Shown here piece by piece: positions 5,319 through 43,397 of a DNA stretch of 45,177 nt. The position numbers were made by a program, and so were the translations under genes. The notes beneath the pieces were generated by a model that saw only the letters and a program-made list of their open reading frames with translations, was not told the DNA's origin and searched no databases. Source of the stretch: Oscillospiraceae bacterium (GTDB taxonomy: Bacteria > Bacillota > Clostridia > Oscillospirales > Oscillospiraceae). The stretch spans positions 1 through 45,177 of the forward strand of contig JAJQCH010000082.1 in the NCBI GenBank assembly GCA_021202795.1, in the 5' to 3' direction. Numbering within the stretch: position 1 is the first letter of the stretch; each line of letters begins with the position of its first letter.

Positions 5319-6995
5319 TTATTCGACGCTAATCATGTAGTAATAGACCGGCTGGCCGCCGCGAATCAGGCAGGTCTCCGTGTCGGGGAAGCTGTTGCCA
5401 AGGGCGGAGGAGAAGCTCTCCGCGTCGTTTTCGGCTACGTCCTGTCCGTAGTAGACGGTGACGAACTCCGGCTCCAGAGGGGAGATGGTCGGGCCGAGAC
5501 TGGACACCAACTCGTCCGTGCTGGCAAAGGAGCCGACCAGCGCGCCGTCCATTAATGTAAGAAATTCTCCGGCGCGGATGGCGTGACCGTCGAACTCCGA
5601 ATCGCGGGCGGCGTATGTTACCTGAATGGTATGGACGGTGCTGATGGCGTCCGTAAATTCCGCCTGAAGCTGCTCCGGGGTGCTGTCCGGGGACAGGCGC
5701 ATCATAGCGCTGATGCCCTGAGGGACTGTGCGGGAGGGGATAACGATGACCTTTTTCGGCGTCAGAGGCGCGCACTGCTCCGCAGCCATGATGATGTTTT
5801 TATTGTTGGGGAACACGAACACGGTTTCCGCCGGGGTCAGATTCACAGCCCGGAGGATGTCCTCTGTGGAGGGGTTCATGGTTTGACCGCCGGAGACGAT
5901 ACCGTCCGCGCCGAGCTGGCGGAACAGCTCCTCCAGGCCGTCTCCCGCGCAGACACATACAGTCCCGATGGGCTTTTCCGCCGGGACGGGCTTGGGGATG
6001 GGCTGATTTTCCGGCTCTGCCGGAGCTTCTGTCGACGCGGAGGCCTCCTCCTGGGCCTGGGCCTCCAGAGAAGTGTGCTGCTCCCGCATATTCTCGATTT
6101 TTGTGGTCAGCAGGGGGCCGTAGGTCAGAGCCTGGGTCAACACCCAGCCCGGCGCGTTGGTATGGACATGGACTTTTATGATTTCCGCGTCGTCCACCAT
6201 GACGATGCTGTCGCCGATGTTTTCCAGATAGGCCCACAGCAAATCGGGGCTTTTGGCCGTGCCGGATTTGCGGACGATAAACTCCGTGCAGTAGGTATAT
6301 TTGATGTCCTCCGTGGCGAAGGCTGTGAAATCGGCCTTGGCCTTGGCGGCGCCGCTACCGGGGTTCTGGTTCACCGTTACCCGGCCCTCCAGATAGCCCA
6401 GCATGGCCTCCAGCATCAGGACGTAGCCATACCCGCCGGCGTCGATCACGCCCGCCTTTTTCAGCACCGGGTTTTGGTTCACGGTGCCGTCCAGAGCGGT
6501 CTTGGCTCCTTCCACGGCGGCATAGAGCATCTCCTCGAAGTTTTCGGATTCCTTGGCCTTGGCGTTGGCGGCCTCCGCCGCCATACGGCTGACGGTCAGA
6601 ATGGTACCTTCCGCCGGCTTCATCACCGCCTTATAGGCGGATTCCACGCCGGTGGTCATGGCCCTGGCGTATTCGGCGGCGGTGGCGGTCTCCAGCTTTT
6701 TCAGGCCCTTGGACAGACCCCGGAACAGCAGGGACAATATGACGCCGGAGTTGCCCCTGGCTCCCCGCAGGAGAGCGGAGGCCACCCGGTCGGCGGTGGC
6801 GGTCACGGTGGTGGCCTCCTTCCGTCGCAGGTCGGCGGCAGCGGAGCCGAGGGTCAGGCGCATATTGGCCCCCGTGTCCCCGTCCGGAACGGGGAATACG
6901 TTCAGCTCATTGATGGCCTGTTCGTTTGCTTCCAGGGCGTCGTAGGCGCACAGAACCATGTTCCGCAGCGCGGCGCCGTCTATGTGTTCTCTCAA
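5319..6995 (-). CDS. DAK2/DegV-like protein, YloV/FakA family
   Basis: NELNVFPVPDGDTGANMRLT...GARGNSGVILSLLFRGL...DAGGYGYVLMLEAMLGYLEG, the hallmark DAK2 (YloV) sequence, followed by the DegV-like C-terminal part. Confidence 0.92.
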   Translation of the reverse strand: MREHIDGAALRNMVLCAYDALEANEQAINELNVFPVPDGDTGANMRLTLGSAAADLRRKEATTVTATADRVASALLRGARGNSGVILSLLFRGLSKGLKKLETATAAEYARAMTTGVESAYKAVMKPAEGTILTVSRMAAEAANAKAKESENFEEMLYAAVEGAKTALDGTVNQNPVLKKAGVIDAGGYGYVLMLEAMLGYLEGRVTVNQNPGSGAAKAKADFTAFATEDIKYTYCTEFIVRKSGTAKSPDLLWAYLENIGDSIVMVDDAEIIKVHVHTNAPGWVLTQALTYGPLLTTKIENMREQHTSLEAQAQEEASASTEAPAEPENQPIPKPVPAEKPIGTVCVCAGDGLEELFRQLGADGIVSGGQTMNPSTEDILRAVNLTPAETVFVFPNNKNIIMAAEQCAPLTPKKVIVIPSRTVPQGISAMMRLSPDSTPEQLQAEFTDAISTVHTIQVTYAARDSEFDGHAIRAGEFLTLMDGALVGSFASTDELVSSLGPTISPLEPEFVTVYYGQDVAENDAESFSSALGNSFPDTETCLIRGGQPVYYYMISVE

Positions 6996-32443: not shown

Positions 32444-32486
32444 ATAATAAAAGCGGAGACACCAAGCCCCTCGCTTGATGTCTCCG
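32444..32486 (-). terminator. Expression-platform terminator of the glycine riboswitch
   Basis: Minus strand CGGAGACATCAAGCGAGGGGCTTGGTGTCTCCG followed by CTTTTATTATTTTG. Confidence 0.8.
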
Positions 32487-32491
32487 TTTCT

Positions 32492-32655
32492 TGACCTGAG
32501 AGATTCCCCGCCTGACGGCGGGTTGCTCCTTCGGTGTGCGGACGCCGCCAGTGGCGATCCGCCCTATTCAGAGTATCGTCCTGACCCAGTCCTTTTGCCT
32601 GAGAGCTGTTTATCCCCTTCGGCGCTGCGTTTTCCACAGTCTCTCCTGAGCCAAT
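32492..32655 (-). promoter_or_regulatory. Tandem glycine riboswitch
   Basis: Minus strand reads GGAGAGACTGTGG...GCGCCGAAGGGGATAAACAGCTCTCAGGCAAAAGGACTGGGTCAGGACGATACTCTG...CACACCGAAGGAGCAACCC...GAATCTCTCAGGTCAAGAAACGGAGACA, with two CCGAAGG/CTCTCAGG signatures. Confidence 0.93.
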
Positions 32656-32708
32656 CATCCGAATCCATATGTATTTTTCAGTCCGCGTCCCCGCTTTCTT
32701 TAGCAAAA

Positions 32709-39696: not shown

Positions 39697-40707
39697 GTGC
39701 TTTTGTGCAATATAGACAAGGCCGTAGCCCTGCTCCGCCAGGCGGAGGATGTCCTGATCATCACCCACATCAGGCCGGACGGGGATGCCGCAGGCAGCGG
39801 CTGCGCCCTCTGCCTGGGCCTGCGAGCCATGGGAAAACGGGCGTTTTTGGCAAAGAATCCCCCCTCGATGGGGCGGTATGAAAAATATATGACCCCCTAT
39901 TTTGCCCCGGCGGACTTTGTCCCGGCGTTTGTCGTAGCAGTGGATACCCCAGGCCCCGGCCAGTATCCCCCTGGTTGGGAGTCGTTTGCAGAGCGGACAG
40001 ACCTTGCCATCGACCACCACGGCACAAACAGCGGCTATGCGAAGGCCACCCTTCTGGAGGGGGACAGCGCCGCCGCCGGGGAGCTGGTCTATCTGGTGCT
40101 GGAGACGATGGGCGTTTCCCTGTCCCCGGCTATGACGGAGGCGCTGTATGTGGCGCTGACAACGGACACCAACGGCTTCCGCACAGCGGACACCACCGCC
40201 CGGACGCTGTATATCGCATCCAGGCTGTATGACAGGGGCTTTGACGCGGCGGCCCTGACCCGGTCGCTGTTTGAGACGAAAACTGCCGCCCGCCTGCGGC
40301 TGGAATCGTTTCTGTTCGATTCCATGCGGTTTCCAAGGGAGGACATATGCGTTATGACCCTTCCCCTGGACGCCATAAAACGCTGCGGGGCGGGGGAGAA
40401 CGACATGGACAAAATCTCCCTTCTGACCATGACGCCGGAGGGCGTGAAATATGGTCTGCTCCTGCGGGAGCTGGAGGACGGGACGTGGAAGATCTCCCTG
40501 CGGACGGACGGCTCCGTGAACGCCGGAAGCGTTCTTGGAACGGTAGGCGGGGGAGGACACGCCGCCGCTGCGGGGGCTGTGCTGCCGGGCGAGCCGGAGG
40601 CCATAGCGCAGGCGGTTTTGTCCGCGCTGGAGGCTGTCCTATACATTGTAATCCCGGCGCCGGAGCGCGCCAAATATAGATTTATGAAGGAGAAACGAAA
40701 TGAGTAA
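39697..40707 (+). CDS. DHH/DHHA1 family phosphoesterase (NrnA-like)
   Basis: VLIITHIRPDGDAAGSGCALCLGLRAMGK...LAIDHHGTNSGYAKAT...GTVGGGGHAAAAGAVL. Confidence 0.9.
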   Translation: MLLCNIDKAVALLRQAEDVLIITHIRPDGDAAGSGCALCLGLRAMGKRAFLAKNPPSMGRYEKYMTPYFAPADFVPAFVVAVDTPGPGQYPPGWESFAERTDLAIDHHGTNSGYAKATLLEGDSAAAGELVYLVLETMGVSLSPAMTEALYVALTTDTNGFRTADTTARTLYIASRLYDRGFDAAALTRSLFETKTAARLRLESFLFDSMRFPREDICVMTLPLDAIKRCGAGENDMDKISLLTMTPEGVKYGLLLRELEDGTWKISLRTDGSVNAGSVLGTVGGGGHAAAAGAVLPGEPEAIAQAVLSALEAVLYIVIPAPERAKYRFMKEKRNE

Positions 40708-42478
40708 ACGCATCCTATCCCTGCTTTTGGCTGTGATTCTGTGCCTTGGCCTTGGCACCGCGGCACTGGCTGACAGCGACAATTTCCTCGACCTGGTGGA
40801 CGAGGTCTACGAGGTCACAGAGGCCATTCATCTCAGCCGTCTGACCATCGATGAGAACAGCTCTCTCACCGCCCCGGAGGGCTATGTCCCCGTGGTCACG
40901 GTGGACGGCTACCTCAAGACCATCGAGGAGGGTACCGCCTATGCCTTCTATGGCAATGTGGACGTGTATCCTCTGGCAGATGCCATTGTGAGTGAGAACA
41001 TCCGCGGCGCTTCCGCCGCCTATGTGGAGGACGGCGCTTCCGTGTCCTTTGAGGATCAGGTCTTCCTGTCCTATGGCTATATCAGCGGCGAGTATATCGA
41101 CGCGAACGGGGACGGCGAGCTGACCGAGGACGAGTGGCAGTCTGACACCACTAACGAGTACGGCAGCAAGTTCGGTATGTCCGCCGGCGTCCTGGCAAAC
41201 GGCGAGGGGACCACTGTTGACCTGACCGACGTGACCGTGCTGTCCGCCAGCGGCTCCACCTCCAACGGTGTGTTTGCCGCCAACGGCTCCACCATCACCA
41301 TCACCGATTCCACCGTCATCACCAACAACTCTCAGGGCCACGCTCTGGACGCCACCTTCGGCGGCACCTTCATCGTGGACAACTGCGTCCTGCGCACCAA
41401 CGGCGGCTCCTCCTCCGTTCTGTCCACCGACTTCGGCGGCGGATTCTTTAAGGTGACAAACACCTACTGCGAGTCCAACACCACCGGCTCCGGCGCTATC
41501 TACGCCGCCGGCTCCTCCATCTTCGTGCTGGAGGACTGCGTCCTGCACACCAATAAGTCCGAGACGGTCATGAACGCCCACAACAACAGCGTTGTGGTGC
41601 TGAAGGACTGCTCCCTGTACGGCCCGGAGATCTTTGACGGCCACCAGGCCATGCCCTCCCCTGAAAACGCCTCCGGCGACACCACCTTCAGCTTCAACTG
41701 CACCTATGAGGCGGTAGACAACGCCATCATCCATGAGCAGGGCGGCGTCACCACCCACTACATCATTGGCTGCGACACCTCCGCCTGCTCTGCGGACTAC
41801 GCCATCCAGGTGGAGTATGAAGACGGCATGGGTACCGGCAAGGTCTATGTGAATCTGTGGGATACGGAAATGACCGGCGACATCTACTGCTATGAGGGCG
41901 GCGTTGTGGAGCTGAACCTCTATGAGGGTGCTGTCTTCACCGGCGAGGTAATCATGGACGGTGAGTGCGAAGTCACCATCAACGTCTACAACGGCGGCGA
42001 GTATATCGGTGAGTATGAGGCCAACTACATCGACGAGACCGTGGCGGCTCCTGAGTATTCTGAGGACACCTACGGCTCCATCGAGTGGATCAAGACCGAG
42101 TCCGGCCTGTGGGCTGAGGGCAATAGCTGGTCCAGCTATGAGACCGCCTATGACACCTATGTCCAGCCTGTTATCGCGGCTGCCTCCGCCAACGTAAACG
42201 GCGAGGCCAACGAGCCCACCGTTGTCACCGCCTCCGGCAAGACCGAGGCCAATGTGGACATCTTCGACCTGTACATCGAGTATATGCGCAGCCAGCTCAT
42301 CGAGGGAGACGAGTTCTATGAGGAGTTCTCCGCTGCCCTGGATTCCGTCCACGAGGCAGGCTACGATGAGTCCACCATGCCCTTTGAGATGCTCATCTCC
42401 ATGGGTGCTTACGGCTATGAGGGCTTCGCCGCCTATTATCTTGAAAACGGCGAGATCCCCCCGGTAGCCGAGTGGTAA
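40700..42478 (+). CDS. Secreted right-handed beta-helix protein
   Basis: Signal peptide MSKRILSLLLAVILCLGLGTAALA; repeated turns such as GVFAANGSTITITDSTVITNNSQGHALDATFGGTFIVDNCVLRTNGGSSSVLSTDFGGGFFKVTNTYCESNTTG. Confidence 0.75.
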   Translation: MSKRILSLLLAVILCLGLGTAALADSDNFLDLVDEVYEVTEAIHLSRLTIDENSSLTAPEGYVPVVTVDGYLKTIEEGTAYAFYGNVDVYPLADAIVSENIRGASAAYVEDGASVSFEDQVFLSYGYISGEYIDANGDGELTEDEWQSDTTNEYGSKFGMSAGVLANGEGTTVDLTDVTVLSASGSTSNGVFAANGSTITITDSTVITNNSQGHALDATFGGTFIVDNCVLRTNGGSSSVLSTDFGGGFFKVTNTYCESNTTGSGAIYAAGSSIFVLEDCVLHTNKSETVMNAHNNSVVVLKDCSLYGPEIFDGHQAMPSPENASGDTTFSFNCTYEAVDNAIIHEQGGVTTHYIIGCDTSACSADYAIQVEYEDGMGTGKVYVNLWDTEMTGDIYCYEGGVVELNLYEGAVFTGEVIMDGECEVTINVYNGGEYIGEYEANYIDETVAAPEYSEDTYGSIEWIKTESGLWAEGNSWSSYETAYDTYVQPVIAAASANVNGEANEPTVVTASGKTEANVDIFDLYIEYMRSQLIEGDEFYEEFSAALDSVHEAGYDESTMPFEMLISMGAYGYEGFAAYYLENGEIPPVAEW

Positions 42479-42503
42479 AAGCAAACAAAATGTAATCCAC
42501 CAT

Positions 42504-42539
42504 AATAAACGTAAAGGGCGGAAGCCCTTTACGTTTATT
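42504..42539. terminator. Perfect 16-bp terminator hairpin
   Basis: AATAAACGTAAAGGGC-ggaa-GCCCTTTACGTTTATT followed by TATTTGG. Confidence 0.85.
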
Positions 42540-42564
42540 TATTTGGTAATTTTACAAAAAAGAC

Positions 42565-42592
42565 TTGACGGCGGCCAAAAAATGTGTAAACT
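42565..42592 (+). promoter_or_regulatory. Candidate promoter for a noncoding RNA
   Basis: TTGACG (42565-42570), 16-nt spacer, TAAACT (42587-42592). Confidence 0.5.
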
Positions 42593-42597
42593 GTTAA

Positions 42598-42826
42598 ATA
42601 GGGAACGATGTGAGCCGGGAGTCGTGTCGGTTCCTATCGCCGGCCATCGCCCCTGCATATGGGCCTGCCCACTTCATGTGACTCCCCTTTCTCCTCTTAA
42701 TGCTTTCTTATCATACCAAGAAAACTCCTTTACTGTAATTTTTGTTTCCTAAGCGCGCAGGGGCGTTGGTTTACGGGGGGCGTTTTCTCCTTCGCAGAGG
42801 CGTTCAGCCTTTGCGGTTTTTTTATG
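42598..42826 (+). ncRNA. Candidate structured, pseudoknotted noncoding RNA (class not confirmed)
   Basis: No convincing CDS; predicted promoter and intrinsic terminator; helices GGGAGTC/GACTCCC (42617-42623/42680-42686) and CGCCCCTGC/GCAGGGGCG (42648-42656/42757-42765) interleave. Confidence 0.55.
42797..42822 (+). terminator. Intrinsic terminator of the candidate ncRNA
   Basis: CGCAGAGGC-gttca-GCCTTTGCG followed by GTTTTTTT. Confidence 0.75.
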
Positions 42827-43397
42827 CCAAAAGCACGGGCTGAAGCTGGCGGCCCCTGGCCGCGGCCTCCACCGTAGCGGCGATTTGGGCATAATCGCAG
42901 CTCAGAGACGCAGGCTTTTCGGCGGGAGCGTCCTGGCGGAAGGGGACAAAATAAATATTCCTCCGATTCAGCAGCCGCCCGATGCTCTCCGCCGATGCGC
43001 CCAGGCCGTCGTTGGTGGACACGCCGACGACCAGGGGCTTGCCGTTTCGCAGATGGCCCTTGGCGGCCATGGTGACGGCGGTGTCCGTAATGCCGTGGGC
43101 AAGCTTCCCCAATGTGTTTCCCGTGCAGGGGACGATGGCCAGCACGTCGATGACGTTGCTGGGGCCAAGAGGCTCCGCGTCGAAAATGGTCGTGACGGCG
43201 CTGTGGCCGCTCTCCTTTTCCAGCAGAGACAGCCAGTCCCCGCCGGGGCCGAAGCGGCTGTCCTGCAGGGCGTTCTCGCTGAAGATGGGGTAAACCTCAA
43301 ACTGGCGGCACAGGGCAGGCAGCACCTGGGCCAGCTTTCCAAAGGAGCAGTAGGAACCGGTCAGGGCAAGCCCCAGGCGCAGCTTATTGTTTTCCAT
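42822..43397 (-). CDS. dpaB: Dipicolinate synthase subunit B
   Basis: LRLGLALTGSYCSFGKLAQVLPAL...YPIFSENALQDSRFG...IVPCTGNTLGKLAHGITDTAVTMAAKGHLRNGKPLVVGVSTNDGLGASAESIGRLLNRRNIYFVPFRQD. Confidence 0.95.
   Translation of the reverse strand: MENNKLRLGLALTGSYCSFGKLAQVLPALCRQFEVYPIFSENALQDSRFGPGGDWLSLLEKESGHSAVTTIFDAEPLGPSNVIDVLAIVPCTGNTLGKLAHGITDTAVTMAAKGHLRNGKPLVVGVSTNDGLGASAESIGRLLNRRNIYFVPFRQDAPAEKPASLSCDYAQIAATVEAAARGRQLQPVLLA

Follow-up and report, generated by a model that had tools for sequence, protein, structure and literature searches.

A small RNA family from one uncultured genus of Oscillospiraceae, with a nearly invariant C/U-rich core and candidate targets among nutrient-transporter genes

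The intergenic gap at 42479-42821 of the window (the whole 45,177-nucleotide stretch of Oscillospiraceae DNA that was analysed) harbors a small RNA (sRNA) gene, which represents a real, previously unclassified family confined to one uncultured genus. The gene has a well-defined anatomy, is conserved across the genus and is non-coding, and orthologous genes of sister species carry conserved complementarity to its core. On the strength of sequence comparison, its product is probably a trans-acting base-pairing sRNA of ~225 nt that represses the translation of nutrient-transporter mRNAs. Transcription would run from the gene's own promoter to an intrinsic terminator, and a 5' hairpin together with a long closing helix would display a C/U-rich seed of almost constant sequence. 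Over ~16-23 nt, antisense pairing of this seed would cover the Shine-Dalgarno region and the adjoining upstream bases of mRNAs that encode a TrpX-like ABC binding protein, AmtB, FeoA2 and a sulfate-type binding protein, so that the 30S subunit could not enter and translation would fall; pairing, repression and physiological signal alike are what we infer. The original prediction had proposed a compact, pseudoknotted noncoding RNA with its own promoter and terminator; the compact RNA, at about 225 nt, is well supported by genus-wide conservation, but the pseudoknot is not. The elements of the gene in the window are as follows.

42565-42592, plus strand: sRNA promoter, TTGACG-16-TAAACT, with the transcription start expected near 42599
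42600-42635, plus strand: 5' hairpin (arms 42600-42613 and 42622-42635), assigned from pairing, stem-preserving changes and fold z
42644-42656, plus strand: 5' arm of the closing helix P1, containing the previously noted CGCCCCUGC
42680-42711, plus strand: C/U-rich core, nearly invariant and the proposed seed, assigned from conservation, predicted openness and antisense matches to ribosome-binding sites (RBSs) in sister species
42715-42731, plus strand: small hairpin region rich in A/U, corresponding to GGAAA-CUCC-UUUCC of other species
42757-42769, plus strand: 3' arm of P1, containing GCAGGGGCG
42792-42824, plus strand: intrinsic terminator, with a T-tailed hairpin at 42792-42816

Both the promoter and the T-tailed terminator are present where they had been proposed, and both recur among relatives. 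Throughout the genus the promoter reads TTGACGA, followed ~17 nt on by a TTAGAT/TTATAT box, below an A/T-rich stretch. In nearly all relatives P1 is followed by a strong T-tailed stem, so that the position of the terminator is conserved while its sequence varies by species; a terminator scan taken alone performs near chance (2 found versus 1.5 expected). The A/U-rich hairpin at 42715-42731 is weak in the window's clade, where stretches of 5 and 10 nt have been inserted around it. The gap is bounded on the left by a gene for a secreted beta-helix protein (40700-42478, plus strand) and on the right by a convergent dpaB-type flavoprotein gene (42822-43397, minus strand). The location beside dpaAB named in the original prediction is incidental, as other clades have different downstream genes. 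Across the genus, the usual position of the sRNA gene is 3' of a DHH-family phosphoesterase gene, either adjoining it or with one gene between, and gene content on the side facing away from the phosphoesterase varies between genomes. Just 3' of the beta-helix gene, the window also holds a perfect 16-bp inverted repeat with a 4-nt loop (42504-42539), which is probably the terminator of that gene; a similar 36-bp stretch occurs in the window's clade and in L032. Elsewhere in the window, tandem glycine riboswitch aptamers (32482-32658, minus strand) score above the Rfam threshold.

Homologous intergenic regions, proposed earlier as a check on the locus, were found in 32 of the 35 genomes of a single Oscillospiraceae genus that includes the window's own, when 149 related genomes were searched. 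All 32 keep the promoter, the helix, the core and the position of the terminator, there is one copy of the gene per genome, and the three genomes lacking it are 64-82% complete. In one genome (G028) the gene is split over two contig ends, L004 and L044, and its 3' end in L004 is unreliable. A covariance model found no match in ~105 other Oscillospiraceae genera or in a sample of the order, under strict filters that may lose weak relatives. An exact 22-nt pattern of the core, scanned against 84,980 species genomes, returned 32 stretches, all from metagenome-assembled genomes (MAGs) of Oscillospiraceae, 31 of which are the sRNA gene and one a target site; viral contigs had no match to the core. 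Aligned relatives share a 5' hairpin of variable sequence, then GCCGGCCA-CGCCCCUG, the conserved run ACUCCCCUUUCUCCUCUU(G/A)AUGCUUUCU(C/U)AU, a small GGAAACUCCUUUCC hairpin and the partner CAGGGG(U/C)G. The core, the proposed seed, is the most conserved part of the RNA: it reads GACUCCCCUUUCUCCUCUUAAUGCUUUCUUAU in the window and AACUCCCCUUUCUCCUCUUGAUGCUUUCUCAU in most species, and is nearly invariant over 25-31 nt.

As originally proposed, the gap contains no convincing coding sequence, and no reading frame on either strand is conserved among relatives that could better explain the conservation. The nearest approach to one is a short gene on the minus strand, in which AAAGGAG and a spacer of 8 nt precede ATG AGA AAG CAT CAA GAG GAG (MRKHQEEKGE...); in nearly all species other than those of the window's clade, the Shine-Dalgarno sequence is well spaced and the start is open. 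Its frame, however, shifts between species within ~15 codons and meets a stop after five codons in the window's clade, the conserved run is devoid of synonymous variation, and promoter and terminator lie on the plus strand. This peptide was rejected for its frame shifts and early stop, and a coding origin of the conservation is given next to no credence. Membership in a known RNA class, for which 6S RNA and the raiA motif had been suggested, fares little better. Size and a long closing helix would fit a divergent member of 6S RNA, the raiA motif or another Rfam family. Yet neither the window nor ten relatives reach the curated or gathering score of any Rfam 15 family, and permissive searches of the same sequences return matches at chance level only. 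Although the locus resembles 6S RNA (RF00013) in length and closing helix, a canonical 6S RNA is encoded elsewhere in 32 of the 35 genomes, the window's included, and the 6S identity of the locus was rejected on that ground. A divergent known class is therefore extremely unlikely.

The fold of the window's own sequence is no better than that of shuffles (z = -0.65), so the case for an RNA rests on comparison; the full transcript of one relative folds with z = -6.4. The 9-bp long-range helix of the original prediction (42648-42656 with 42757-42765) stands and proves to be part of the longer P1. Its nine central pairs are intact in 21 of 21 aligned sequences, and P1 extends to 13-14 bp in most of them. 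Pairs vary between G-U and G-C and among U-A, U-G and C-G; covariation is slight because P1 hardly varies. The 5' hairpin is kept while its sequence changes, with a median z of -2.2 and 28 of 32 sequences below -1 against mononucleotide shuffles. Within the window's clade, 94% of its cells are paired and two pairs have changed on both sides. A different picture emerges for the second predicted helix, GGGAGUC/GACUCCC. Although present as sequence, it is restricted to the window's five-genome clade and shows no covariation. In two of these five genomes a U to C change breaks it and at the same time turns an A-U pair of the 5' hairpin into G-C. As the helix is unconserved and the disruptive substitution acts as a compensatory one in the 5' hairpin, only one of the two interleaved helices is maintained in relatives, and the pseudoknot was rejected. 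The core is predicted to be 0.70 unpaired, versus 0.43 for the RNA as a whole.

In sister species, the core is antisense to the RBSs of genes for a TrpX-like ABC substrate-binding protein (trpX), amtB, feoA2 and a sulfate-type binding protein. One such case is a 22-nt exact match on the feoA2 RBS of the MAG that carries sRNA locus L064; the site is the second RBS of a feoA-feoA-feoB operon (L072, ~6442-6934, minus strand). A search of genus genomes for the complement of the core returned more low-mismatch sites, mostly on RBSs: amtB in five species, trpX in about a dozen and a sulfate-type binding protein. Since the core resembles an anti-Shine-Dalgarno sequence, chance matches to RBSs are expected. 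Indeed, counts at 3 mismatches approximate those of a reversed control, and RBS matches overall are no more numerous than for control seeds. The argument consequently rests on orthologous sites rather than on counts. The trpX site is found in about 20 species at -30 to -7. Of 23 main-clade species, 18 carry ATGAGAAAG at -30/-29 of the trpX leader, most having 19-21 of 23 positions complementary to the seed. Sequence identity reaches 0.63 in one main block of the site and 0.80 in the other, compared to 0.37-0.50 around them. Extended sites occur in 9 of 18 species at amtB and in 5 of 14 at feoA2. Complementarity reaches beyond the Shine-Dalgarno part, through ATGAGAAAGCAT in trpX and GCATCAAG in amtB and feoA2. 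Mean complementarity of the three ortholog sets exceeds that of all 1000 seeds with a shuffled non-Shine-Dalgarno half, a statistic that is not blind, as the sets were chosen for their complementarity.

A gene-by-gene ranking was obtained for one nearly complete genome (G010; a simple gene caller gave 1,959 gene starts), using an ungapped complementarity score and the gain over controls in which only the non-Shine-Dalgarno half of the seed was shuffled. There, trpX ranks first of about 1,959 and a gene whose product is, by sequence, a probable solute-binding protein ranks second; the top gain was reached by 12 of 200 control seeds and the second-best by 2 of 200. Among the orthologs compared, no single target has a site in every species. 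Matches to secreted beta-helix proteins, a MetQ-like lipoprotein and SmpB were weak, and none of these was counted among the targets. L206, L207, L396 and the window gene at 40700-42478 encode secreted proteins with signal-peptide-like starts, the last of them a predicted right-handed beta-helix, and some of these genes have an RBS partly complementary to the core. The orthologous sites likely reflect a small set of real targets rather than a proven large regulon. A grander scenario is conceivable: the RNA would govern nutrient uptake throughout the genus, its seed of >23 nt having been frozen by near-perfect antisense silencing of several transporter mRNAs, with clades recruiting further transporter mRNAs through sites evolved to fit the fixed seed. 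We regard it as speculative and rather doubtful.

The window's own clade departs from this pattern. Its seed is partly changed, reading CUUAAUGCUUUCUUAU, and the clade with the changed seed is also the one whose trpX leader is without the site. An amtB-type ammonium transporter gene starts in the window at ~22204, with an ordinary Shine-Dalgarno match only. Neither the window's own genome nor its clade yielded a strong target, and the function of the sRNA is therefore inferred from sister species.

Two further readings bear on the core itself. It could belong to a structured noncoding RNA whose partner is a protein or the ribosome; it might, for example, imitate the pyrimidine-rich 3' terminus of 16S rRNA or serve as a decoy, and the RBS matches would then reflect nothing but anti-Shine-Dalgarno likeness. 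Such a role would suit a core that is more constant than most sRNA seeds and whose RBS matches equal controls in number, but it leaves unexplained the complementarity outside the Shine-Dalgarno sequence at orthologous genes (ATGAGAAAGCAT at trpX, GCATCAAG at amtB and feoA2); on balance it is unlikely. Alternatively, a transcription factor could recognize the conserved run, and the leader sequences that resemble it, as DNA sites, in which case they would not be RNA pairing partners; sequences like the run do precede several genes, and the RNA status of the locus is itself deduced from sequence. Promoter, stem-preserving variation of the hairpin and terminator nonetheless point to an RNA, and the sites, which overlap Shine-Dalgarno sequences, lie antisense to the sRNA in every case, making this reading very unlikely. 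The preferred reading, a trans-acting sRNA that pairs with RBSs, is consistent with an independent gene that has a promoter, a terminator and no conserved open reading frame; a conserved seed, predicted to be accessible and complementary to the initiation regions of unlinked genes in several species, is found in the main clade but not in the window's. If correct, the family would be one that Rfam lacks and whose targets can be named and tested (TrpX-like binding protein, AmtB and FeoA2), and conservation of target sites over ~20 species of an uncultured genus would, from assembled genomes alone, have pointed to a function.

A literature search of limited scope brought up no sRNA from this family of gut anaerobes, and the closest parallels come from other bacteria. 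LhrC1-5, Rli22 and Rli33-1 of Listeria are trans-acting sRNAs whose C-rich single-stranded motifs pair with the oppA RBS and which act on heme and iron genes; this family is 105-121 nt long and multicopy, with short UCCC motifs (PMC8079631). The likeness would lie in a Gram-positive host and a C-rich seed directed at the RBS of a transporter binding protein gene (PMC8079631). The present RNA differs in its ~225 nt, single copy per genome and one long seed, in place of the 105-121 nt, several UCCC motifs and multiple copies that define LhrC members, and no sequence relation was found. The streptococcal csRNAs aim unpaired anti-Shine-Dalgarno stretches at translation initiation regions; they occur as several similar copies per genome, combine anti-Shine-Dalgarno with anti-start codon sequences and are controlled by CiaR (PMC3091779). 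An anti-Shine-Dalgarno stretch is shared, whereas the present sRNA has extra predicted pairing upstream of the Shine-Dalgarno sequence. In GcvB, a strongly conserved seed acts on several mRNAs for amino-acid uptake; the main seed of GcvB is rich in G and U and pairs with C/A-rich sites in an Hfq-dependent manner. GcvB is an sRNA of enteric bacteria that targets amino-acid uptake (PMC3879156). A conserved seed and uptake mRNAs as targets would be common to both, while the type of seed differs and no sequence relation was found. Taken together, the trans-acting sRNA that pairs with RBSs is a known kind of RNA, of which the family described here differs from LhrC, the csRNAs and GcvB in size, copy number and seed.
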